From Bacillaceae bacterium JMAK1 (GTDB lineage: Bacteria > Bacillota > Bacilli > Bacillales > Marinococcaceae), in the NCBI GenBank assembly GCA_012970285.1, contig JIBW01000007.1, positions 372,001-436,000 on the forward strand: 64,000 nt of DNA, in the 5' to 3' direction. Position numbers and translations under genes: made by a program. Shown here in pieces: positions 3,477-26,305 of the stretch (positions are counted from its first letter, which is position 1; the number at the start of each line of letters is the position of its first letter). The notes below the pieces were generated by a model. That model worked only from the letters and a program-made list of their open reading frames with translations, ran no database searches and was not told the DNA's origin.

Positions 3477-5191
3477 GCTTGAGTGCCTCCTTGCTGCGTC
3501 GTGATCATGTCACGGTATAATTCGTCCTCGTTCCAAAGTGTTTCGTGTGTACCGCTCGCACGAATCGTCCCGTCTTCTAATAAGAAGATGCGGTCTGCTT
3601 CTCGAATCGTGTACAATCGGTGAGCGACAATAATTACGGTCGACTGTTCACTTAGTTTTTTAAGTGATGTTTGGAGCATCGCTTCCGTTCGAAGGTCAAG
3701 GCCCGTTGTTGGTTCATCGAAAAACACGACGTTTGGTTTTTTGTAAAACGCCCGTGCCATAAACACTCGTTGACGTTCCCCTCCAGAAAGGCCTCGTCCA
3801 CCTTCACCGACGATCGTATGAATGCCATTTGGTAATTGCTCAATCCATTCAATAATCCCAGCTTCAACTGCCGCATTTAGAACATCTTCATCCGTAGGTT
3901 TCTTTTTGGAACCAATTGAAATGTTCTCGGCAATCGTCCCCGCAAACAAATAGCCATCTTGAGAAATAAGCGTCATTTGGTCGTACCAAGAAGAAGCTTC
4001 AATTTCGTGTAAATGCATGTTCCCTAATTGGTAACTACCTTCTGTGTGAGGCAGCAGTCCAGCTAATATGTGAAGAAGTGTCGTCTTTCCTGACCCTGTA
4101 GCACCGATCAAAGCAATCTTTTCATACGGCTTGGCTACAAAGTTAATGTGTGACAGCTGAAAGCCTTCAGGATAAGAAAATTGTACTTCCTCCATCGAAA
4201 GTGTCGGTGGATTTGTCTGATCAAGTGCATTCGAACCGAAGGATTGCTCTTCATCGGATTCCGCGAGCAACGTTTCAGTTTTTTCCAGTGCCCCTTTACT
4301 CACTTTTCCTGAATGAAATGCAGAACCGAGATCTTTTAACTTATTGAACAGTTCAGGCGCTAGAATTAACATTAAGAACCCTGAATAAAAGGTTGTGTCT
4401 TGAACGATAATCATACGAATGGCAACTTCTAAAGCAATGATTCCGATGCTTAACATTGAGATAAATTCAAGTGCGAGCGAGTTCGTGAACGCGACTTTTA
4501 AGACATTCATCGTAGCATCACGGAATTCAATGCTTTTTTCTTTAATCCGTTGATGTTGTTGCTTTGTCCGACCGAAAAACTTAATCGTTGATAATCCTTG
4601 AAGTGTGTCGAGAAACACACTTGAAAAGTCAGCCATTTTCTCGACTTGTTGTTTCGACTGATCACCGGTACGCATGCCAATAATGATCATATAGACGAAG
4701 ATGAACGGAGCCGTAATGAGAATAATGACACCAGATGCCCAATGTTCGTAGAAGATCACGATCAAAAGCATGAGTGGGATAATGGTTGATTGAATCATTT
4801 GTGGAATGTATTGATTAAAATACGCAGCCGTTTCATCGACCGTATCTAGAAAATAGCTTGTCGTCTCACCTGTTTTTGTTTTCTTAGATGAGGTAAGGGT
4901 GCGATTTGAAAAGTGACTCAATAGTCGTTCGCGTAGCGTGATTTTAACGTTTGTGGCAATGGTATTAGCCATTCGATCAATCAGAAATCGACTGAAAATG
5001 CGCGCGAACAACGCAATCAGTAAGATGATAAATTGGGGCATCACTTCTTGAAAAGGAAGCGATTGAAGAAATAATCGATCAATAATTGAAACAATCATAA
5101 AGGCTTGAACTACGATCGCAACACCCGTAATAACGGTAAGTAATGTCATCGTAGTAAGGTGTGTACGACTAGGACGTAAGTGTTCGTTCAA
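3473..5191 (-). CDS. cydD: Thiol-reductant ABC exporter subunit CydD
   Basis: 572 residues: six membrane helices, then an ABC ATPase domain with Walker A GATGSGKTT, signature LSGGERQR, Walker B VVFFDEPTTGLD and H-loop VAHRL. The segment LAPELFNKLKDLGSAFHSG after the membrane domain is typical of CydD rather than CydC. The start is TTG at 5191, seven bases after AGGAGG; no better ATG is near. It heads a two-gene operon with cydC. A Rex-type operator and a promoter lie just upstream, so low-oxygen/NADH control is expected, as for the cyd genes of B. subtilis. Confidence 0.9.
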   Translation of the reverse strand: MNEHLRPSRTHLTTMTLLTVITGVAIVVQAFMIVSIIDRLFLQSLPFQEVMPQFIILLIALFARIFSRFLIDRMANTIATNVKITLRERLLSHFSNRTLTSSKKTKTGETTSYFLDTVDETAAYFNQYIPQMIQSTIIPLMLLIVIFYEHWASGVIILITAPFIFVYMIIIGMRTGDQSKQQVEKMADFSSVFLDTLQGLSTIKFFGRTKQQHQRIKEKSIEFRDATMNVLKVAFTNSLALEFISMLSIGIIALEVAIRMIIVQDTTFYSGFLMLILAPELFNKLKDLGSAFHSGKVSKGALEKTETLLAESDEEQSFGSNALDQTNPPTLSMEEVQFSYPEGFQLSHINFVAKPYEKIALIGATGSGKTTLLHILAGLLPHTEGSYQLGNMHLHEIEASSWYDQMTLISQDGYLFAGTIAENISIGSKKKPTDEDVLNAAVEAGIIEWIEQLPNGIHTIVGEGGRGLSGGERQRVFMARAFYKKPNVVFFDEPTTGLDLRTEAMLQTSLKKLSEQSTVIIVAHRLYTIREADRIFLLEDGTIRASGTHETLWNEDELYRDMITTQQGGTQA

Positions 5192-15133: not shown

Positions 15134-15760
15134 ATGCGCATGAACTGTTTAATTTTAGGCGCTACTGGAAGGGTAGGGAGTCATGTTGTAAATCATGCAC
15201 TTCAAGAAAATTACCGCGTGACGGTCTTGGTACGAACACCAGAGAATGCCAAGGCTGAGCATGAAAACCTAACGATTATAAAAGGAAATGTCTTAAATAA
15301 AGATGATATTACTCATGCAATTGAAGGTGTTGACGTTGTCATTAGTGCACTCAATACAGATGGTTCGACGACGCTGTCCGAGAGCATGCCACTCATCATA
15401 GACGCTATGAAAGGACAAGGGGTAAGGCGAATCATTACGGTAGGTACAGCTGGAATTTTACAAAGTAGAACATCACCTGAATTGCTTCGTTATCAATCGA
15501 GTGAATCAAAGCGTAAGCTAACTCGAGCAGCAGAAGACCATCACCGAGCATATGATTTTTTGAAGGCATCAGGTCTTGATTGGACGATCGTTTGCCCAAC
15601 CTATTTGCCAGATGGGGAGTACACTGGACAGTATCGAATAGAACGTGACTTCTTGCCAGAAGGTGGAGCGAAAATATCCGTGCCTGACACAGCGGAATGT
15701 ACCTGGAAGCAAGTCGAATGTGATAAGTACATAGGAGCTAGAATCGGACTAGCTTATTAG
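15134..15760 (+). CDS. NAD(P)-binding SDR/NmrA-like oxidoreductase
   Basis: 208 residues with a Rossmann start NCLILGATGRVGSHV, an Asn/Asp pair for dinucleotide binding (IKGNVLNKDDI), VVISALNTDG and the atypical-SDR end GLDWTIVCPTYLPDG. It belongs with NmrA/YwnB-type proteins that bind NAD(P) and act as flavin or quinone reductases or redox sensors. Two ATG codons (15134, 15140) follow GAGGAGG; the second has the better spacing (10 nt versus 4 nt). Confidence 0.75.
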   Translation: MRMNCLILGATGRVGSHVVNHALQENYRVTVLVRTPENAKAEHENLTIIKGNVLNKDDITHAIEGVDVVISALNTDGSTTLSESMPLIIDAMKGQGVRRIITVGTAGILQSRTSPELLRYQSSESKRKLTRAAEDHHRAYDFLKASGLDWTIVCPTYLPDGEYTGQYRIERDFLPEGGAKISVPDTAECTWKQVECDKYIGARIGLAY

Positions 15761-15879: not shown

Positions 15880-15915
15880 TTATGCACGCAGTTCTGGTTA
15901 TGCAAAAATGCATAA
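15880..15915. promoter_or_regulatory. Predicted enhancer (UAS) for the sigma-54 activator, antiporter side
   Basis: The palindrome TTATGC-AAAAAT-GCATAA (15898-15915) is centred about 52 bp upstream of the -24 GG. A further direct TTATGC half-site at 15880-15885 starts 18 bp upstream. The same motif at the same distance, with a half-site 19 bp upstream, precedes the aminotransferase operon. The palindrome is embedded in a longer hairpin that can also act as a terminator. Confidence 0.6.
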
Positions 15916-15932
15916 CCAGAACTGCTTTTTTT
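15888..15932 (+). terminator. Perfect 16-bp hairpin with T-tract
   Basis: GCAGTTCTGGTTATGC (15888-15903) pairs without mismatch to 15910-15925 across a 6-nt loop, followed by seven T residues. It is textbook for a terminator of the upstream SDR gene, although that gene ended 128 bp earlier. Its core coincides with the predicted activator palindrome. Confidence 0.75.
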
Positions 15933-15955
15933 CTTGATTAGACTGTAATAGGAAG

Positions 15956-15972
15956 TTGGCAAGTTTTTTGCA
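15956..15972 (+). promoter_or_regulatory. Sigma-54 (-24/-12) promoter of the antiporter gene
   Basis: TTGGCAAGTTTTTTGCA matches the consensus YTGGCACG-N4-TTGCW at all but one defined position. The invariant GG (15958-15959) and GC (15970-15971) are 10 bp apart. It lies about 45 bp before the antiporter start codon, downstream of the predicted enhancer. Confidence 0.8.
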
Positions 15973-16017
15973 AGTTCAATTCTCTTAAAAAAGATACACG
16001 CAAAAGGAGAGAAGGGA

Positions 16018-17427
16018 ATGAAAGAAGCAAAGCAACCGACATTGCTCGTAGCGCTTTTACCAATTGCCTTTATGATTATTGCATTGGTCGTTGCGATTGG
16101 GGGATACGGTGCAGACCCGCATTTTCCACTATTTATTAGTGCAGTAGTTGCTGTCATCATTGCGATGGCTCTAGGTCACACGTGGAAAACATTAGAATCG
16201 GGAATGTTAAAAGCAATTGGACTTGCCATGCAAGCGATTATCATTTTAATTATTATCGGTACGATTATCGCTTATTGGATTGCTGGGGGTATCGTACCAA
16301 CGATGATCTATTGCGGATTAAGCATTTTATCTCCTGGTTATTTTCTTGTTGCTGCTTGTATTATCTGTTGTGTCGTTTCGTTAGCGGGGGGAAACGCCTG
16401 GACAGCTGCGGGTACAATCGGTATTGCACTTATGGGTGTTGGCGAAGGGCTCGGGATGAATCCGGCGATGGTTGCAGGAGCAATTATTTCGGGTGTTTAC
16501 TTTGGTGATAAAATATCACCGCTCTCTGAGACGACGAATTTGGCGCCAGGGGTACTCGGTGTGAACTTGTTTGAACACATTCGTCATCTTCTTTATACGA
16601 CGATACCTGCACTTATTATTTCGTTGATCATTTATACGATTATGGGCTTTTTCTTACATCAATCTGGATCAGATACGTCACAAATTGCTTATTTGCAACA
16701 AAACTTAACAGATTTATTTACGATCACACCGTGGCTACTTATCGTTCCTCTCATCGTTATTATTCTCATGATCATGAAAACACCTGCAATTCCCGCGCTC
16801 GTCATCGGTTCAGTACTTGGGTTAATCAGTGCGATCTTTGTTCAAGGGGTAGCATTTGAAGATACGATCGGTATGCTCGTTGAAGGCTATGTCGTTGAAA
16901 CAGGTGATGAGGCTGTCGACAACTTGTTGACAAACGGTGGCGTAGAAGCGATGATGTGGACCGTTTCATTAATCATTATTGCGATGAGCTTTGGAGGGAT
17001 TTTGGAGTCCGCAGGGTTTTTCAAGGCGATCGTTGAAAGTTTGATGCGTCTTGCGAAGTCTACGGGAAGTTTAATTGCAACGACAGTTGCAACTGCATTC
17101 GCGTCAAATGTCGTTGGGTGTGATCAATATTTGAGTATTATTTTACCGGCGCGAATGTATGAAGGTGAATACAGAAAACGTCGCTTAAAATTAAAAAACT
17201 TATCGCGAACGGTTGAAGATGCAGGAACAATGACGTCACCATTGATTCCTTGGAACACGTGTGGAGCGTTTATGTTTGCAACACTTGGTGTGAGTGCATT
17301 TAGTTATGCACCGTATGCATTCTTGGCATTATTAAGTCCGATTATAGCGATTATTTACGGCTATATCGGCTTTACAATTGAGTATGAAGAGGATGAACCG
17401 ACAACAGAAAGTAAGCAAGCTAGCTAG
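16018..17427 (+). CDS. NhaC-family Na+/H+ antiporter or Na+-coupled solute antiporter
   Basis: 469 residues with about 11-12 membrane helices. Typical NhaC motifs are ISGVYFGDKISPLSETTNLAPGV in the middle and SNVVGCDQYLSIILPARMY plus EDAGTMTSPLIPWNTCGAF near the end. The family includes Na+/H+ antiporters and the malate/lactate antiporter MleN of the same length. The ion or solute cannot be told from motifs. Its sigma-54 promoter and position before the activator gene suggest it imports the substrate of the downstream operon rather than serving pH homeostasis (inference). AAAGGAG precedes ATG 16018. Confidence 0.8.
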   Translation: MKEAKQPTLLVALLPIAFMIIALVVAIGGYGADPHFPLFISAVVAVIIAMALGHTWKTLESGMLKAIGLAMQAIIILIIIGTIIAYWIAGGIVPTMIYCGLSILSPGYFLVAACIICCVVSLAGGNAWTAAGTIGIALMGVGEGLGMNPAMVAGAIISGVYFGDKISPLSETTNLAPGVLGVNLFEHIRHLLYTTIPALIISLIIYTIMGFFLHQSGSDTSQIAYLQQNLTDLFTITPWLLIVPLIVIILMIMKTPAIPALVIGSVLGLISAIFVQGVAFEDTIGMLVEGYVVETGDEAVDNLLTNGGVEAMMWTVSLIIIAMSFGGILESAGFFKAIVESLMRLAKSTGSLIATTVATAFASNVVGCDQYLSIILPARMYEGEYRKRRLKLKNLSRTVEDAGTMTSPLIPWNTCGAFMFATLGVSAFSYAPYAFLALLSPIIAIIYGYIGFTIEYEEDEPTTESKQAS

Positions 17428-17496
17428 AGAATTTATCAACAATTCTAACAATCTCTCTACTTTTTTAGTATACTGTTAAAAAGGGAGAGTTTTGTT

Positions 17497-19593
17497 ATGT
17501 TAATGGAACAATTGCGACCAATTTACGCCATTCCTGAACATTCCGATGAAATAACAGAATACTTACAAGAGTGCAAAGAGCCGTTCCTTTTCTTGGAAAA
17601 GGACAATGAACTGCAAGCCTACGTAGAGTTAAAGGATAGTGACGGCATTCACTCACGTAAAGATCTAGAATTAGTTTCTACATCGATGCACAACGTCGGG
17701 GTGATTCAACCGGATCAATCGTTTACACTGCCGTTAATTTTTCATTTAATGGGTGAACCGATTGTCATTGTTCATGATGAATCGGAATCACCAATTGGGT
17801 TCATCGAACGTGAAGATGTGTTAATTGAGCTGTTTCAACGCGAGCATCATAACGCAAATCTACTAAAAATTCTGTTGTCATCGATTCCAATGGGCATGTT
17901 CATCGTTGATAAAAACGAACGAATTATGAACAGTAATGATAAGGCGCTACAGATGATTCGCTCGACACATAAACAAGTCGTTGGCAAATCGGCTGGAGAA
18001 GTGTTTCAACAAGATCACGTGCATCGTGTGTTTACATATGGTGAAACGCTTCTGAATCAAATTCTTATTACAGATGAAATGGGCATTCTCGTCGACTATA
18101 GTCCAATTAAAAATGGATCTGGTGTAGTCGAAGGAGCCTTGATCATCGTTCAAGATTTACCAATGGTTGAACAGATGGCAATGGAAATTGAATTTGTGAA
18201 AGACTTGAATCGTGACTTAAATGCGGTTTTGTCTACGATGTATGATGAAGTGTTAATTGTCGATAAAGATGGCACATTACTTCGTCATAGTGATAAATAT
18301 ATCGAAGGAATGTGGCCAGATGGTATTGATGCTCTCGTCGGAAAGAATCTATTAGAAGTTGATTTGCAAGGGTTGCCTCCATCGGTGACAAAGCTTGTAT
18401 TAAAGCAGCAAAAGAAAGTGTCTGTCGTTCAAGAAATACCTTCAGGTGATAAAGTACTTGCAATTGGGAACCCGGTATTTAATACAAATGGAGAGCTTGA
18501 ACGAATTATTATTGCCTCAAGGGATATTACCGAGAATATTCAGTTGAAATCAGAGTTGAGGCAAACGAAGGCAATTTCGAATCGCTATAAAGAAGAATTA
18601 GAGAGCTTGAAGAACCAAAAGTCCCCACAGCATACTCTTATTTATGCGAGTGAGAAGATGGAGCGAATTATGAAGAACATTGAAAAGTTATCGATGTTCT
18701 CATCGACTGTCCTCATTCAAGGGGAAACGGGTGTAGGGAAAGAACTAATTGCAAAATCGATTCACGAGAAAAGTACGAGGAGTACTGAGCCGTTTTTAGC
18801 GTTAAATTGTGGCTCCATCCCTGAGACGCTCCTTGAAAGTGAACTGTTTGGATACACGAAAGGGTCATTTACTGGTGCAGATTCAAAGGGGAAGCCTGGC
18901 TATTTTCAGCAGGCAGACCGTGGCGTGCTTTTTTTAGATGAGATTGGTGACATTCCGATGTCATTACAAGTGAAGTTACTTCGTGTTTTACAAGAAGGAG
19001 AAGTTGTGCCGATCGGTTCCCAAACGCCAATACGTGTTGATGTGCAAATCATTGCGGCGACGCATAGGAATTTGGAAGAAATGGTTCAAGAGGGAAGTTT
19101 TCGTGAAGATTTGTTTTATCGAATTAATGTCGTTCCACTCTATGTTCCGCCATTACGTGAACGACCTGAAGATATCCCGCTGTTGGCTTACCACTTTATT
19201 CGAAAACTAAATGAGCGTTATCAGATGCGTCATTCATTTTCGCCTGACGCACTTAGCTTACTGGAGACGTACGCATGGCCGGGAAATATTCGCGAACTTC
19301 AAAACGTCGTTGAGCGATTATTTGTAACTGCCGATGATGATTTGATTTCAGCAGAGGCTGCTAGTCAGTTTTTACGTGTAGAGAAAGTGATTAAACCGTC
19401 AACACCGTCACCAGTTTTGGCTTCTGTCATGCCTTTAAATGATGCGAAGCAACTCGTTGAGAACCAATTGCTACGTCTTGCGATGGAGCAATTTAAGACA
19501 ACGACGAAAGCAGCGAGAGCCTTAGGGATTAGTCAGTCAGCAGTCAGTCGAAAATGGGCAAAGCTACAAAGCGAAACATCTGCGAGAGAGTAA
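17497..19593 (+). CDS. Sigma-54-dependent transcriptional activator with PAS sensor domains
   Basis: 698 residues. The N-terminus (about 1-115) looks CBS-pair-like, followed by PAS domains (about 120-230 and 240-350) and a coiled linker. The central AAA+ domain has Walker A GETGVGKE (409-416), the sigma-54-contact loop as GSFTGA, Walker B GVLFLDEIGD and the arginine-finger region FREDLFYRINV. The C-terminal HTH is AARALGISQSAVSRKW. It resembles RocR/BkdR-type activators of amino-acid catabolism. Two -24/-12 promoters flank the gene, and both carry the same palindrome at the same distance. It should therefore activate the antiporter gene and the aminotransferase operon. A TATACT (17469-17474) with a poor -35 may drive it. 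Confidence 0.9.
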   Translation: MLMEQLRPIYAIPEHSDEITEYLQECKEPFLFLEKDNELQAYVELKDSDGIHSRKDLELVSTSMHNVGVIQPDQSFTLPLIFHLMGEPIVIVHDESESPIGFIEREDVLIELFQREHHNANLLKILLSSIPMGMFIVDKNERIMNSNDKALQMIRSTHKQVVGKSAGEVFQQDHVHRVFTYGETLLNQILITDEMGILVDYSPIKNGSGVVEGALIIVQDLPMVEQMAMEIEFVKDLNRDLNAVLSTMYDEVLIVDKDGTLLRHSDKYIEGMWPDGIDALVGKNLLEVDLQGLPPSVTKLVLKQQKKVSVVQEIPSGDKVLAIGNPVFNTNGELERIIIASRDITENIQLKSELRQTKAISNRYKEELESLKNQKSPQHTLIYASEKMERIMKNIEKLSMFSSTVLIQGETGVGKELIAKSIHEKSTRSTEPFLALNCGSIPETLLESELFGYTKGSFTGADSKGKPGYFQQADRGVLFLDEIGDIPMSLQVKLLRVLQEGEVVPIGSQTPIRVDVQIIAATHRNLEEMVQEGSFREDLFYRINVVPLYVPPLRERPEDIPLLAYHFIRKLNERYQMRHSFSPDALSLLETYAWPGNIRELQNVVERLFVTADDDLISAEAASQFLRVEKVIKPSTPSPVLASVMPLNDAKQLVENQLLRLAMEQFKTTTKAARALGISQSAVSRKWAKLQSETSARE

Positions 19594-19619
19594 GATCGTG
19601 CAGGTGTTTCGTTTTACAT

Positions 19620-19680
19620 CTATGCAAAATATCATTATTTATGCAATAACGCATAGTTTGAAACGGGGTTATGCGTTATT
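19620..19680. promoter_or_regulatory. Predicted enhancer (UAS) for the sigma-54 activator, operon side
   Basis: TTATGC-AATAAC-GCATAG (19639-19656) is centred about 51 bp upstream of the -24 GG. A CTATGC half-site at 19620-19625 starts 19 bp upstream and a TTATGC half-site lies at 19669-19674. In addition AATAACGCATA (19645-19655) and TATGCGTTATT (19670-19680) form a perfect 11-bp inverted repeat. The arrangement mirrors that ahead of the antiporter gene. Confidence 0.65.
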
Positions 19681-19695
19681 GAGCGCGTTGTCATA

Positions 19696-19712
19696 TTGGC
19701 ATGAGAATTGCA
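19696..19712 (+). promoter_or_regulatory. Sigma-54 (-24/-12) promoter of the aminotransferase operon
   Basis: TTGGCATGAGAATTGCA matches YTGGCACG-N4-TTGCW with one mismatch. GG at 19698-19699 and GC at 19710-19711 are 10 bp apart. The ATG of the first operon gene is 42 bp downstream. Confidence 0.85.
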
Positions 19713-19753: not shown

Positions 19754-21112
19754 ATGGTTAAAACGGTAGCGAACGATGTACAAACATTAATTGAGCAAGA
19801 TAAAAAGCATTATATTCACCCCACCTCATCACCGAAGTTGCAGCAAGAAGAAGGAACGCCACTTATTTTTACGAGTGGTGATGGTGTTTACGCAAATAGC
19901 AAGGACGGCAAGCGTTACTTTGATGGTCTTTCAATGCTTTGGAACGTAAATATTGGACATGGTCGTAAAGAGCTTGCGACAGCGGCTTATGAACAAATGA
20001 CGCAAATGGCTTATGCTTCTTCTTTTAAAGGGTACTCAAATGAACCAGCGATTAAGTTAGCAGAGAAGCTGGCAAGCATTTCACCAGGAGATTTAAATGC
20101 AGTGTTCTACACTTCAGGCGGTTCAGAGTCGAATGATACAGCGTTTAAATTGGCTCGTTTTTATTGGGCGCAAAAGAACAAACCGGAAAAGCGCAAGATT
20201 ATTGCGTTAGAAAATGCGTACCACGGCGTAACCATTGGTGCACAAACGGCAACGGCCATTCCTTTATTCCATAACTTCTCAGAATCAGGAATTGCTGACG
20301 TTCTCCATGCAAAAGCCCATATTACAGCTTGTGAGAACGGAGACCGAAACGACCCAGATTATGAGTCATCGATTCGCGCGACGATTGAGCGTGAAGGTGC
20401 TGATACCATAGCAGCCGTTATTTTGGAGCCAGTTCAAGGTTCTGGTGGAGTGTACATTCCACCTGCAGGGTATTTAGAAGCAGTCCGCGCACTATGTGAT
20501 GAGCATGAGATCTTGTTCATCGCAGATGAAGTGATTTGTGGGTTTGGACGTACAGGCAAGATGTTTAGTGTAGAACATTGGGGTGTTACACCAGACATGA
20601 TGAGCATTGCAAAAGGAATCTCAAGTGGTTATGCCCAATTAGGCGGGGTCATGGTTAACGATGCAATTCATGCGGTTATTAACGAGTACGATGGTGTATT
20701 GGCTCACGGGTTTACGTACAGTGGTCATCCGACGGCTTGTGCGGTTGCATTGAAGAATATTGAGATCTTAGAAAATGAGAAAATCATAGAAAATACTGCT
20801 GAGATGGAGAAAGAGTTACTCGCACAATTAAAGAAACTTGAAGTCAAACATGCTCACTTCACCAATAGTCGTGCGGTCGGTATGTTAGCAGCATTTGAAG
20901 TGTTAAAGAATCGTGAAACAGGAGAACGCTTCGCTGACGATGTTGCACCTGCAGTAACAGTCGTTGATGAATGCTTCAATCGACAACTTATTTTACGAGC
21001 ACTTGGACCAAATCGCGATGTGATTGCAATTGCACCACCGTTGACGATTACAAAAGATGAGATTGCGGAAATGATTTCGATCATCGATGAGGCATTAACA
21101 GCCTCCTTTTAA
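19754..21112 (+). CDS. Class III omega-amino acid:pyruvate-type aminotransferase
   Basis: 452 residues. It has the class III PLP pattern: GGSESNDTAFKLAR (phosphate site), NAYHGVT, ILEPVQGSGG, FIADEVICGFGRTG and MSIAKGISSGYAQLGG, where Lys287 is the PLP lysine. The start YIHPTSSP is common in the beta-alanine/GABA/diamine:pyruvate transaminase branch. Such enzymes move the terminal amino group of an omega-amino acid or diamine to pyruvate, giving a semialdehyde and alanine. That fits the semialdehyde dehydrogenase and alanine dehydrogenase in the same operon. First gene of a five-gene operon; GGAGG precedes the ATG. Confidence 0.88.
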   Translation: MVKTVANDVQTLIEQDKKHYIHPTSSPKLQQEEGTPLIFTSGDGVYANSKDGKRYFDGLSMLWNVNIGHGRKELATAAYEQMTQMAYASSFKGYSNEPAIKLAEKLASISPGDLNAVFYTSGGSESNDTAFKLARFYWAQKNKPEKRKIIALENAYHGVTIGAQTATAIPLFHNFSESGIADVLHAKAHITACENGDRNDPDYESSIRATIEREGADTIAAVILEPVQGSGGVYIPPAGYLEAVRALCDEHEILFIADEVICGFGRTGKMFSVEHWGVTPDMMSIAKGISSGYAQLGGVMVNDAIHAVINEYDGVLAHGFTYSGHPTACAVALKNIEILENEKIIENTAEMEKELLAQLKKLEVKHAHFTNSRAVGMLAAFEVLKNRETGERFADDVAPAVTVVDECFNRQLILRALGPNRDVIAIAPPLTITKDEIAEMISIIDEALTASF

Positions 21113-21134: not shown

Positions 21135-22241
21135 ATGATTAAACGTTTAACGCTAGCAGGTTCTGCAAAAGAAATCGGTAAAAAACACGGTGAGCTAGGG
21201 AAAGAACAAGTTACGCAAAGTTTGGACTTATACGAACGACTTTTCCACGGTTATCAAAACATAACGTGGCAAGAGGCACGAGAGCGGGCGCTCGTTCACG
21301 TAAAAGCGATTGAGAAGCACGATCCATCGATGTTAGAAGAGATCGAAGGCATTGCGGTAGGTGCTGGTGTTGATTTTGAAGACATATTAGCGTTAAATGC
21401 GCGAAGTGAAATTGCTCTTGCAGGAAGTGGACCGAGTTTTTCTGATGGTTGTACAGCGATGTCAGTTTACCCTCCGCTAACAAATGACACGATCATTGCA
21501 CAAAACTGGGACTGGAAAGGGGAACAAGAGAAAAGCTTGTTGCTCCTTGATATTGAAGCTACGAATGCGCCGAAGATTACGATGGTTACTGAAGGTGGGA
21601 TGATTGGCAAAATTGGCTTTAATGAGGCGGGGGTTGGGATTTGTTTTAACGCCCTGATTACAGACAAAAAGTCCGATCAGTTGCCGATCCATCTCGGGTT
21701 ACGAGCTGTGCTTAATTCTTATAGCATGAGCGAAGCAATTGCGAAGATTAAGCAAAAACAAATCGCTGCAGCAGCAAGTTTTCTAATTGGCTATGACAAT
21801 GGTGAGGACTCTGGAATGAGTGTCAACGTTGAAGTGTCACCATTTGGGATGGATTATGTGAGTGGTGAAGATGGAAGGCTTGTTCATACGAACCACGTAT
21901 TATCACCAAAAGTACTACAAGACTTAACCGATATGAATGAGTTACGTTTTGAAGATTCAATGCTTCGCAAAAAACGTGCAGAACAGCTCATGCTCGGAGC
22001 ACTCGTTAATAATGAGCGTATTGATGAAGACACATTTAAATCGTGGCTAGGTGATACGTACAATGCACCGAATGCGATTAATCATTTCAAAAACGAAGCG
22101 GCACCGACACATCGTCAGATGGAGACTGTCTTTTCTGTTGTGATGAATTTATCAAAACGTACGATGGATCTTTGTGTCGGCAAACCGAGCGAAAATGAAT
22201 TTGTATCGATTACTCAGGAGGGGCATTATGGCGTACATTAA
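21135..22241 (+). CDS. C45-family autoproteolytic acyltransferase/amide hydrolase
   Basis: 368 residues of the Ntn-hydrolase family that includes isopenicillin N acyltransferase and insect Tan. SDGCTAM places the autoprocessing Gly105-Cys106 bond, with Cys106 as the new N-terminal nucleophile. IAQNWDW, GFNEAGVGICFNAL and VHTNHVL are typical family segments. No signal peptide, so cytosolic. Tan hydrolyses N-beta-alanyl amides. In this operon the enzyme probably releases an omega-amino acid from an amide for the aminotransferase (inference). Starts 22 bp after the aminotransferase and overlaps the next gene by 14 bp. Confidence 0.8.
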   Translation: MIKRLTLAGSAKEIGKKHGELGKEQVTQSLDLYERLFHGYQNITWQEARERALVHVKAIEKHDPSMLEEIEGIAVGAGVDFEDILALNARSEIALAGSGPSFSDGCTAMSVYPPLTNDTIIAQNWDWKGEQEKSLLLLDIEATNAPKITMVTEGGMIGKIGFNEAGVGICFNALITDKKSDQLPIHLGLRAVLNSYSMSEAIAKIKQKQIAAAASFLIGYDNGEDSGMSVNVEVSPFGMDYVSGEDGRLVHTNHVLSPKVLQDLTDMNELRFEDSMLRKKRAEQLMLGALVNNERIDEDTFKSWLGDTYNAPNAINHFKNEAAPTHRQMETVFSVVMNLSKRTMDLCVGKPSENEFVSITQEGHYGVH

Positions 22242-23640
22242 CGGACAATGGTTGGAAACAAGCGAACAAGAGAGTGTGTATAATCCAGCAACGGGCGAGG
22301 TCATCGCTTCAGTTTCTATCGTTGGTGCAAACGAAACAAAAGAAGCGATTCAAGCAGCAAGTGAAAGCTTCAAAACGTGGCGTAAGTTACCAGGTGCAAC
22401 GAGAGGGGCCTACATGGCTAAAGCAGTTGAGATTATGCGTTCTCGCGCAGAAGAATTGGCTAATACGATTACACAAGAAAATGGCAAGCCACTTGCCGAT
22501 GCGAAAGGTGAAGTCACGAGCGGCATTAACTATTTAGAGTGGTATGCAGAAGAAGCGAAGCGTGTATATGGCGATGTTGTACCGGCATCTCATGAAGACA
22601 AACACCTCATGGTTCTTCGCCAACCTGTTGGAGTTGCAGCGGCAATTACACCTTGGAACTTCCCTTTTTCAATGATTACGAGAAAGATTGCACCAGCACT
22701 GGCAGCTGGGTGTACGGTCGTATTAAAGCCTGCACCTGCAACACCACTTTCTGCGATCAACGTATTTGAATGTTTCCATGAAGCGGGTGTACCTGCAGGA
22801 GTTGTGAACTTAGTTATAGGGGATGCAGAAGCGATTGGTAAAGAAATGACGAGCAGCACAGACGTACGTAAGCTCACGTTTACTGGCTCAACGGCTGTCG
22901 GTAAAATGCTTATGCGTGATTCTGCTGCAACGATGAAACGAATGAGTATGGAGCTTGGCGGTCATGCACCTTTTATCGTTTTTGAAGATGCTGATCTTGA
23001 AGCAGCGGCAAATGGTGTGCTGATGTCTAAGTTTAGAAATGCGGGTCAGACATGTATTAGCACAAACCGCGTGTATGTCCAGCAATCGGTCGTTACAGAG
23101 TTCGGAGATATTTTGGCGCGTAAAGTTTCAGAGTTAACAGTTGGAGAAGGTACGAAAGAAGGCGTTGACGTTGGTCCTTTAATCAATGACAATGCGGTTC
23201 AGAAAGTCAATGAACACGTTCAAGATGCCTGTTCTAAAGGCGGTAAGGTCTTAAGCGGAGGCAATATCATTGAACGTAACGGGAACTTCTTTGAACCGAC
23301 AGTGATTCAAGGTGCAACCGACACGATGCGGATTGCTACTGAAGAAACGTTCGGACCAGTCGCGCCCATTTTCTCTTTTGAGACGACAGAAGAAGTGATT
23401 GAACGGGCCAATAACAGCCGTTACGGGTTAGCGGGGTATTGCTTTACGAACGATCTTAGCCGTGCGTATGAAGTGATGAATGAACTTGAATACGGCATTG
23501 TTGGGATCAACGATCCGACACCGATTACAGTTCAAGCCCCGTTTGGTGGGATGAAAGAAAGTGGCACAGGTAAAGAAGGTGGCAAATATGGGCTTGACGA
23601 CTATCTAATCGAGAAATTTGTATCCATTAAAACCAACTAA
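22228..23640 (+). CDS. Succinate-semialdehyde dehydrogenase-like aldehyde dehydrogenase
   Basis: 470 residues. ENGKPLADAKGEV, ITPWNFPFSMITRK, FTGSTAVGK, MELGGHAPFIVFEDAD (Glu242) and NAGQTCISTNR (nucleophile Cys276) are intact and typical of the GabD branch. It oxidises a short semialdehyde to the acid with NAD(P)+. The expected substrate is the product of the aminotransferase: succinate semialdehyde if the amine is GABA, malonate semialdehyde if beta-alanine. ATG 22228 has GGAGG in front; an in-frame upstream extension lies inside the C45 gene. Confidence 0.88.
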   Translation: MAYINGQWLETSEQESVYNPATGEVIASVSIVGANETKEAIQAASESFKTWRKLPGATRGAYMAKAVEIMRSRAEELANTITQENGKPLADAKGEVTSGINYLEWYAEEAKRVYGDVVPASHEDKHLMVLRQPVGVAAAITPWNFPFSMITRKIAPALAAGCTVVLKPAPATPLSAINVFECFHEAGVPAGVVNLVIGDAEAIGKEMTSSTDVRKLTFTGSTAVGKMLMRDSAATMKRMSMELGGHAPFIVFEDADLEAAANGVLMSKFRNAGQTCISTNRVYVQQSVVTEFGDILARKVSELTVGEGTKEGVDVGPLINDNAVQKVNEHVQDACSKGGKVLSGGNIIERNGNFFEPTVIQGATDTMRIATEETFGPVAPIFSFETTEEVIERANNSRYGLAGYCFTNDLSRAYEVMNELEYGIVGINDPTPITVQAPFGGMKESGTGKEGGKYGLDDYLIEKFVSIKTN

Positions 23641-23660: not shown

Positions 23661-25184
23661 ATGAGTCGTGAACCCAAAATCATCGTTAGGCAGACGACGT
23701 TTGCTGATATCGATCAGATCATTACTGTAAATGCAATTGGGTTTGGTATTCCTGAAATCGCTTTTAAAAGAAAACACTTTGAAAGCCAGTTGCGAACATT
23801 CCCTGAAGGCCAAGTCTGTGTCGAATACGACGGTAAGATTATCGGTTCTTGTTCAAGTTTAATTATTGATTTCGACGAGTATGGAGAAGACCATCGTTTT
23901 GAAGACATCGCTGATGACGGATATATTCGAAATCACAACCCGAACGGTCGGCACTTGTACGGCATTGAAGTCGTTGTACATCCAGACTATCGCCATATGA
24001 AAATTGGTCGTCGTTTATACGAAGCAAGGCAACGTATTTGCCAGACATTTAATCTTGAAAGCATCTTATTCGGTGGGCGGTTGCCGAACTATCATAAACA
24101 TGCGGACCAATTTAGCGCTGATGAGTATGCTGAAGAAGTTATTAAGAAGAACATTTACGATCCAGTATTAACGTTTCAACTGTCGCACGGATTCAGGTTG
24201 CGAAAAGTTCTAGCGAGTTACTTGAAACATGACCGTGAATCGTTAGAATACGCGTCACTCATGGAGTGGAAAAACCCTCATTATGTAAATCCAGATGAGG
24301 CGTTGTATCAACGTTCTTTACCTGTGACGTTTGCAGCGAGCCAATATGAACTTTCTTTGATCTCATCTTTTGAAGATTTTGCGATTCAAGTGGAAAATGA
24401 CGTGCAAATTGCATTGGAACATCGTGCGCAAGCAATCGTGTTTCCAGAATTGATCACCTTGCAATGGTTATCGTTCAAAGAAGAAACCATTCCTAGTAAA
24501 CAAGCACGGGCGATTGCTGAAGAATATGAGAAGTACCACTCATTGTTCCATACCCTTGCAGTTCGGTACAACATGAACATTTTTGCAGGGTCAACCTTTG
24601 TAAAGGACGAGCAAACGCTTAAAAATCGAGCGCACCTTTTTCACCGTAACGGAACGGTTGATGTTCAAGATAAACTGCATATTACTGTCGAGGAGAAGCG
24701 TAAGTATGGTGTAGAGCCTGGAGATGAACTAGACATCTTTGAAACTGACTTTGGCATGGTATCACTCATGCTAGGATATGATTTGCAGTTTCCGGAAATT
24801 GTAAGATTGGCTGTCGAACGTGGTGCACGCTGGTTAATCGCACCTTTTGCAGGCTCAACACAAGCGGCTGCACTAGAAGTGGAGCGAATTGCAAAGGCAC
24901 GTGCAATAGAAAACCAAATTTTTGTTGTCACAGCATCACTCGTTGGCGGACTTCCAAATGTCAGTCATAGCAAAACGTATCAAGGATTAACGGGTGTTTA
25001 CTCCCCACTTACTCCGCAACTTTCAACAACGGGTGTCTTGGTCGAATCGAACGTTTCAACCGGAGATGTACTCGTTGCAACGACAGATAAAGAAATTCTT
25101 CGCCGTGAAAGAATCAACGGAAGTTGGAGTAACCGACGTCATCGTTTGTATAAGGCAACAGATCTTGAAGGCGTTCATCCATAA
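23661..25184 (+). CDS. GNAT acetyltransferase fused to a nitrilase-fold domain (YhcX-like), catalytic Cys missing
   Basis: 507 residues. The N-terminal GNAT domain (about 1-205) has the acetyl-CoA motif [16 protein letters not shown]. The C-terminal carbon-nitrogen hydrolase domain (about 220-495) keeps Glu263 (VFPELIT) and Lys338 (VQDKLHIT). At the nucleophile position the family motif CYD-x-x-FPE reads GYDLQFPE, with Gly372 in place of Cys. The codon is GGA, not a marginal call. The amidase half is thus probably inactive or binds ligand only. B. subtilis YhcX has the same architecture. Within the operon it could acetylate the amine or an intermediate. Confidence 0.82.
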
Positions 25185-25198
25185 GGAGGATAAAGTCT

Positions 25199-26305
25199 AT
25201 GCGTATTGGAATTCCGAAAGAAGTAAAGAACAATGAAAACCGTGTGGCCATTACACCAGCAGGTGTTAGTCAATTAAAGGCAGCAGGACACGACGTACAT
25301 ATTGAAACGGAGGCGGGAGTTGCCTCTGGTTTTTCGGATCAAGAGTATCACTTAGCCGGTGCTGTTATTGAGCCGACTGCAATGGACGTATGGAAGAAGG
25401 AAATGGTCATGAAAGTAAAAGAACCAGTTGCAAGTGAATATGACTATTTCTATGAAGGGCTGATCTTGTTTGCCTATTTACACTTAGCTGCAGAGCCTGA
25501 ACTTACAGCGGCTCTCGTTTCAAGGAAAGTGACGGCAATTGCGTTTGAAACGGTAGAAAGTGATAAAGGAACGCTCCCACTTCTTACGCCGATGAGTGAA
25601 GTGGCTGGACGGATGGCATCTCAAATCGGCGCTCAGTTTCTTGAGAAACCCAAAGGCGGGAAAGGAATTCTTTTAAGCGGAATCCCTGGTGTTCCTCGTG
25701 GCAAAGTAACTGTCATTGGTGGTGGGGTTGTCGGGACAAATGCTGCCAAGATTGCAATCGGTCTTGGAGCAAATGTGACGATTCTAGATACGAATCCTGT
25801 TCGTTTGCGTGAACTAGATGAGTTGTTTGGTAACCAAGTGACGACCGTGATGAGTAACCCAGTTAGCATTCACGAAAACGTCATTGATTCAGACCTTGTC
25901 ATTGGGGCAGTGTTAATTCCAGGTGCAAAAGCGCCTCGTCTCGTCCGAGAATCAACAGTTCAGTTAATGAAAGCTCACTCTGTCATTGTGGATGTGGCAA
26001 TTGATCAAGGTGGAATTTTTGAAACCGTTGACCGTGTATCCACACACGATGATCCGACGTATACGAAGCACGATGTTGTTCATTACGCAGTTGGAAATAT
26101 GCCAGGGGCTGTTCCGAGAACGTCTACGATTGGATTAAGTAATGTGACGATTCCTTATGCTGTTCAAATCGCTAATGATTTAGAAGGGGCATTACTACAC
26201 AATTTGAATTTACGTAAAGGTTTAAATACGTACCGAGGACAAATCACATACGAAGCAGTTGCCGAAGCGCATGGAAGTGAGTACGAGCCGTTTGCAACTG
26301 TTTAA
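25199..26305 (+). CDS. ald: Alanine dehydrogenase
   Basis: 368 residues, standard length. The start [20 protein letters not shown], the catalytic region AYLHLAAEP, the NAD site [22 protein letters not shown] and the end region [16 protein letters not shown] are all characteristic. It converts L-alanine and NAD+ to pyruvate, ammonia and NADH. As last gene of the sigma-54 operon it would regenerate pyruvate for the aminotransferase and release the nitrogen. GGAGG precedes ATG 25199, 14 bp after the previous stop; a terminator follows. Confidence 0.95.

Follow-up and report, generated by a model that had tools for sequence, protein, structure and literature searches.

A predicted sigma-54 regulon joining Na+/H+ antiporters with amino-compound catabolism in a Geomicrobium-like genome

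GabR of Bacillus thuringiensis, which responds to gamma-aminobutyric acid (GABA) and succinic semialdehyde, uses an inverted repeat to activate gabT (PMC4279683), while OrdR of the Clostridiales is predicted to control nhaC along with ornithine genes (PMC6615313); the GabR-like class has been counted in a wide survey (PMC3162934). How does a related arrangement look in a haloalkaliphile, as Geomicrobium strains have been termed (PMC4064037)? The stretch described here, hereafter the window, comprises 64,000 nucleotides of contig JIBW01000007.1 from Bacillaceae bacterium JMAK1 (positions 372,001 to 436,000), a genome that its sequence marks as Geomicrobium-like. It carries the gene for a sigma-54 activator of 698 amino acids (aa), whose relatives are 96% identical in Geomicrobium sediminis DSM 25540 (L005) and 95% in Geomicrobium sp. 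JCM 19038 (L011), between two -24/-12 promoters: P1, ahead of a Na+/H+ antiporter gene, and P2, ahead of a five-gene operon. Our analysis makes it very probable that this activator, via the palindrome TTATGCA-N4-TGCATAA, controls P1, P2 and a third promoter elsewhere in the genome. The sites at P1 and P2 are the following.

15880 to 15886, plus strand: P1 upstream half-site TTATGCA, 18 bp before the palindrome, 11.2 bits as a half-site at offset -18
15898 to 15915, no strand assigned: predicted P1 enhancer palindrome TTATGCAAAAATGCATAA, top motif match in the window at 23.4 bits, kept in L005 and L011
15956 to 15972, plus strand: P1 sigma-54 -24/-12 element TTGGCAAGTTTTTTGCA, GG-N10-GC, an exact TGGCA-N6-TTGCA
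19620 to 19626, plus strand: P2 upstream half-site CTATGCA, 19 bp before the palindrome, fourth-best full-motif match in the window at 8.2 bits
19639 to 19656, no strand assigned: predicted P2 enhancer palindrome TTATGCAATAACGCATAG, second-best motif match in the window at 20.1 bits
19669 to 19675, plus strand: third half-site TTATGCG, newly recognized here, 30 bp after the start of the P2 palindrome, 8.7 bits, kept in both relatives
19696 to 19712, plus strand: P2 sigma-54 -24/-12 element TTGGCATGAGAATTGCA, GG-N10-GC, an exact TGGCA-N6-TTGCA

The P1 palindrome, TTATGC-AAAAAT-GCATAA, is centred 51.5 bp from the first G of the GG, and its P2 counterpart, TTATGC-AATAAC-GCATAG, 50.5 bp from the GG; the latter reads TTATGCAATTATGCATAA in both Geomicrobium relatives. 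An earlier note on this DNA had placed the -24/-12 elements, the palindromes and the half-site upstream of each, and reading the sequence confirmed them to the base. It had also described the gene in between as a sigma-54 activator with a GSFTGA loop; the loop is present, and the AAA+ region is a Sigma54_activat domain (PF00158, 236 bits). GSFTGA is a named working variant of the GAFTGA-type loop (PMC6615313). The genome contains rpoN once (TIGR02395, 416 bits against a cut-off of 277).

The motif could be learned independently of the window. Training loci contained relatives of the activator or of the operon's C45-family gene, with Geomicrobium and the window held out. A promoter filter (score of at least 0.93, an open reading frame (ORF) downstream, position outside long open frames) gave 65 sigma-54-like promoters in 29 of the 35 oriented loci, some of them kilobases from the activator and not necessarily its targets; nine were removed as near-duplicates before training, leaving 56. 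Palindromic expectation maximization at width 18 with 60 starts yielded TTATGCAAtaTTGCATAA at a log-likelihood of 355, reached by at least six top starts, whereas eight dinucleotide-shuffled sets gave 37-49 with 25 shorter starts each, fewer than in the real run. The two best matches of this held-out motif in the window are exactly the P1 and P2 palindromes, the third-best scoring only 9.4 bits. A palindrome above 9 bits occurs in 45 of the 56 dereplicated promoters, from 26 loci; with the 21 sites that the filter had excluded (11 with such a palindrome, 10 without), the tally for the 35 loci becomes 65 of 86 promoter-like sites. In 20 first-order Markov sequences of 64 kb scored with the same motif, the best match was 14.6 bits and none reached 15 bits, against 23.1 for P1 and 19.9 for P2 on the rescoring scale used there (23.4 and 20.1 in the window scan). 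The motif ranks in the window, these simulations, and the genome promoter scan and 299-genome association described below reject a chance origin of the sites, in line with the earlier view that their repetition is unlikely by chance.

Across 299 genomes of the order, the activator (E 1e-150 or better) is present in 30, and the strict pattern TATGCANNNNTGMATA-N35-65-TGGCA-N6-TTGC in 18, where we take both counts to cover the same genomes. The pattern occurs in 15 of the 30 activator-positive genomes and in three of the 269 below the cut-off (Fisher p 1.5e-14; since the sequences are related by descent, p-values here overstate their independence), and the reversed pattern in none of the 299. In activator-positive genomes outside the strict pattern, some sites lie farther off or have a TTATTCA left arm. 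Orthologues of the window activator in other genera are 47-57% identical to it; the helix-turn-helix (HTH) sequence TTT(K/R)AA..LGISQS.VSRK hardly varies among the orthologue rows, whereas 12 Geomicrobium paralogue rows (11 genes) differ from it. Conservation is thus found at the three levels of two other Geomicrobium genomes, the loci of other genera and the association of pattern with activator, as the scan of relatives proposed in the earlier note required. On a contig other than the activator's in one genome of another genus, a palindrome with a -24/-12 element (L184, G135:C52:10651-10733) is a possible remote target.

Gene order around the activator varies among these loci. The one fully syntenic distant cluster (L089) repeats the window's order of antiporter, activator, aminotransferase, C45 gene, aldehyde dehydrogenase, GNAT gene and alanine dehydrogenase, and at its P2 equivalent TTATGCATATATGCATGA lies 60.5 bp from the GG. 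In L115 and L117 the activator and most enzymes are rearranged, and strong palindromes precede the cluster. The 18-kb L116 stretch has the enzymes and gave no activator match, and none of its palindromes scores above 9 bits; in L118 an activator and C45 genes occur, with no palindrome tied to a sigma-54 promoter. A palindrome lies just before the activator gene in L118 (17.7 bits, at 2714) and L115 (22.7 bits, at 4700; oriented coordinates), which may reflect autoregulation. L091 (22.3 bits) and L107 (18.5 bits) likewise have good palindromes at antiporter promoters.

The genome holds 32 exact TGGCA-N6-TTGCA sites (P1, P2 and 30 others scored as L138-L167), and in only three do the 160 bp upstream contain a palindrome scoring more than 9 bits; no other site exceeds 8.1. 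The three are P1, P2 and the following site.

C8:497858, minus strand: third promoter, with a palindrome of 15.5 bits centred 47.5 bp from the GG and CTATTCA 19 bp upstream

Thus, of the two-promoter regulon that had been proposed, P1 and P2 are supported, and the count rises to three. The third promoter's palindrome is kept in G001 and G002. It precedes a 447-aa PF03553 antiporter, a second one besides that of the window, whose neighbours exceed curated cut-offs for GabT and, at the subfamily level, succinate-semialdehyde dehydrogenase (SSADH); PotB-like, flavin adenine dinucleotide (FAD)-oxidase and GNAT genes lie on the antiporter's other side. The surrounding stretch (L171, C8:482000-501900) has the look of a GABA/polyamine-type island. 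Besides the antiporter with its predicted enhancer it contains gabT, gabD, two M20-type hydrolases, a symporter, another sigma-54 activator, a regulator that looks MocR-like by eye, genes for a GNAT, an FAD oxidase and a PotB-like permease, and a further permease-like ORF. The exact palindrome at C6:163076 (L123) we rejected as a target, since it falls within a 263-aa ORF and has no exact -24/-12 site near.

In a search of four genomes of the genus, G000, G001 and G002 each gave three pattern matches and G003, which is 92% complete, gave none; the reversed pattern was found in none of the four. The best activator match in G003 is only 38% identical (E 4e-94), the only antiporter relative found there stands at 43%, and searches gave no second antiporter at E 1e-60 and no C45 enzyme at E 1e-30. 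With neither close relatives nor sites found in G003, activator, sites and targets appear to be present or absent together.

What is conserved in the arrangement of the sites? A second half-site, in register with the palindrome, lies 18-20 bp away in 29 of the 45 palindrome-bearing promoters, whereas 200 flank shuffles averaged 0.7 such promoters and never gave more than three, and in L117 two full palindromes are spaced exactly 19 bp from each other. Because of these paired promoters and the double palindrome, we read the half-site 18-19 bp upstream at P1 and P2 as the weak member of a pair of sites separated by roughly two turns of the helix. Palindrome centres, by contrast, lie anywhere from 52.5 to 153.5 bp from the GG in the 45 promoters, with ten at 59.5-62.5. 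Phasing at 10.5 bp is moderate (R 0.37, nominal p 0.002, n=45; R 0.52, p 0.0002 among the 32 at distances of up to 110 bp), values that shared ancestry inflates; with all 45, nominal p is likewise <0.05 at 10, 11 and 11.5 bp, and for the 20 promoters at up to 85 bp, periods of 9.5 and 10 bp fit equally or better. With distances from 47.5 to 153.5 bp, a fixed spacing between activator site and promoter is rejected as a family rule. Of the matched enhancer geometry claimed earlier, the pairing therefore holds across the family and the distance to the promoter does not: the conserved geometry is the site pair at 18-20 bp.

The genes that these promoters would serve, with the activator, are as follows.

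16018 to 17427, plus strand: NhaC-family Na+/H+ antiporter, 469 aa (TIGR00931, 499 bits, cut-off 370; PF03553)
17497 to 19593, plus strand: sigma-54 activator (enhancer-binding protein), 698 aa, with an N-terminal region without Pfam match, PAS, AAA+ with GSFTGA, and HTH_50
19754 to 21112, plus strand: operon gene 1, class III aminotransferase (PF00202)
21135 to 22241, plus strand: operon gene 2, C45-family autoproteolytic acyltransferase/hydrolase (NF040521, 277 bits, cut-off 85)
22228 to 23640, plus strand: operon gene 3, SSADH-like aldehyde dehydrogenase (TIGR01780, 625 bits, slightly below the cut-off of 646)
23661 to 25184, plus strand: operon gene 4, GNAT acetyltransferase fused to a carbon-nitrogen (CN) hydrolase (PF00583, PF00795)
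25199 to 26305, plus strand: operon gene 5, alanine dehydrogenase (TIGR00518, 542 bits, cut-off 392)

Gaps between the operon genes are at most 22 bp, or a 14-bp overlap with the ATG start of gene 3. GNAT matches of only about 200 aa are seen in L089, L007, L008, L009, L010 and L115, and near the third promoter lies a lone 211-aa GNAT gene (L171 16407-17042). The activator match is broken into three pieces in Geomicrobium sp. JCM 19038 (L011 8001-10032), and the alanine dehydrogenase there into two (L011 15703-16805), through either sequencing error or decay.

Formation of an AAA+ ring and remodelling of the polymerase are established steps in sigma-54 activation. In the mechanism we propose, dimers of the one-component activator would bind the palindrome through their C-terminal HTH and pair with a weaker site lying 18-20 bp off on roughly the same side of the helix. 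Sensing of an inducer by the N-terminal/PAS part would lead to the AAA+ ring, which, with looping of the intervening DNA, would open sigma-54 polymerase waiting at P1 for the antiporter gene, at P2 for the five-gene catabolic operon and at the remote promoter before the second antiporter, which adjoins gabT-gabD. The inducer is probably GABA or a related amino compound. More tentatively, an omega-amino compound of the GABA/polyamine kind may be released from an acyl or amide derivative, pass its amino group to pyruvate and then be oxidized to the acid, with alanine dehydrogenase recycling alanine to pyruvate and ammonia, and the antiporters might carry substrate, product or Na+/H+. The recycling step is suggested by the position of alanine dehydrogenase beside a class III aminotransferase with pyruvate-using solved relatives.

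The regulon could well be as described and yet serve acylated polyamines, beta-alanine, ornithine-type compounds or some other substrate that is not GABA itself, and we regard this as just as probable as its opposite. Amine, putrescine and polyamine:pyruvate transaminases are among the aminotransferase's solved relatives, the C45 and CN-hydrolase genes suggest amide substrates, the third locus has its PotB-like and FAD-oxidase genes, and nhaC falls within the OrdR ornithine regulon of the Clostridiales (PMC6615313). GABA, on the other hand, is favoured by the gabT and gabD genes adjoining the third promoter and by the resemblance of operon gene 3 to SSADH.

Several observations weigh against assigning the palindrome, its targets and their substrate as we have done. 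The palindrome is absent from 11 of the 56 dereplicated promoters and 21 of the 86 unfiltered sites, and half of the activator-positive genomes (15 of 30) are without the strict pattern. The antiporter promoter of L089 has only degenerate sites of 6.7 and 6.2 bits, 19 bp apart, and the gap before the L115 antiporter has no good palindrome. On the metabolic side, operon genes 1 and 3 have no above-cut-off family among the best 25 families listed for them. Finally, the genome encodes many paralogues of the activator. One, with an SQPTFSRR-type HTH, lies in the stretch of the third promoter and occurs in G001 and G002 as well, while the seven G003 loci inspected, of 12 G003 matches, did not show it; and in the three exceptional genomes (L189, L190 and L191) different sigma-54 activators, 37%, 38% and 45% identical, stand beside the site, with only the HTH of L191's resembling the window's.

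These last points are what one would expect if another regulator that co-occurs with the activator, be it the paralogue at the third promoter or a repressor, bound the palindrome. Since that paralogue has the same distribution in Geomicrobium, the genus alone cannot separate the two. Other genera separate them better, because the TTT(K/R)AA..LGISQS.VSRK helix is near-constant there and the paralogue's HTH is unlike it; the motif, moreover, tracks the window activator across genera and gene orders, and that activator is itself flanked by P1 and P2. We therefore consider binding by another regulator very unlikely. Control of the antiporter gene and the five-gene operon by the window activator, as the earlier note had it, draws support from site conservation and from the association of the sites with the activator.

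The P1 palindrome has a second aspect, missed before, in that it forms the loop end of a hairpin; a further hairpin ends the activator gene.

15888 to 15935, plus strand: terminator-like stem-loop and T run enclosing the P1 palindrome, found by the terminator scan (fold -29.8 kcal/mol, z -8.6)
19568 to 19615, plus strand: hairpin ending the activator gene, a probable terminator (-26.3 kcal/mol, z -6.8), absent from the list of the terminator scan, whose loop limit is 8

The P1 stem-loop (15888-15925) has a 17-bp stem followed by seven T. The stems in L005 and L011 are 19 bp long (-31.1 and -34.1 kcal/mol), and beside TTATGC the relatives change GG/CC to GA/TC and AG/CT with pairing kept. Among 61 scored palindromes, the three Geomicrobium P1 copies extend by 10-12 pairs and the other 58 by 0-6, L095 being a weaker case of a lengthened palindrome (five extra pairs, T-rich tail). 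We infer that the hairpin is the terminator of the gene ending at 15760, built around the enhancer. There is an even chance, in our estimate, that the element is dual, serving as DNA as the enhancer of the antiporter promoter and as RNA as the intrinsic terminator of the upstream gene, with the terminator keeping read-through transcription off the enhancer and the same 18 bases constrained by both roles. Least likely of all, and downgraded for the motif match and the outlying half-site, is that the palindrome is merely the loop-proximal stem of that terminator and its likeness to P2 accidental: while the long stable stem (17-19 bp, -30 to -34 kcal/mol) with its T run and paired changes in all three Geomicrobium sequences, the terminator scan match and the L095 parallel would fit, the loop-proximal 18 bp match at 23 bits a motif learned elsewhere, the half-site 18 bp upstream falls outside the stem, the 58 other palindromes extend by so few pairs, and TTATGCA..TGCATAA is kept in a stem free to vary by pairs.

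The predicted regulon gives a concrete, testable DNA word and a short list of predicted targets for an activator that 30 of the 299 genomes of its order carry, and would tie Na+/H+ antiporters to amino-compound catabolism in Geomicrobium. The motif is undescribed in the literature searched, a weak negative, as most subscription papers and figures fell outside the search. How, then, does the system compare with those already known? The activator's best family is PrdR, the Clostridioides difficile proline reductase activator (NF041552, 409 bits, the best stretch spanning residues 234-686); the score lies below the equivalog cut-off of 795, and the PrdR motif reported for Clostridiales, TGT and ACA with a 10-12 bp spacer, is unlike the window's (PMC6615313). 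As with SoxR of B. thuringiensis, the activator gene lies between two sigma-54 target promoters (PMC4428206). However, the SoxR footprint AAAATATTTTTTACAAATAAAAATATTTT is another motif, with one site serving both targets (PMC4941409), and the SoxR targets are sarcosine genes (PMC4941409, PMC4428206). The OrdR regulon likewise combines a sigma-54 activator, an amino-acid catabolic operon and nhaC, but has ornithine genes and, by description, its own distinct motif (PMC6615313). With GabR the window activator shares the PAS-AAA+-HTH architecture and the sigma-54 promoter; GabR's target is the GABA transaminase gene (PMC4279683), whereas the window operon has other genes, and the GabR site, compared with the window palindrome by description, is an inverted repeat of 21 bp interrupted by a 5-bp gap, which the primers printed in that paper do not show (PMC4279683). 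In its AAA+ domain and loop, its -24/-12 elements, its conserved upstream sites and the rpoN gene of its genome, the system we predict fits a sigma-54-dependent enhancer-binding-protein regulon.

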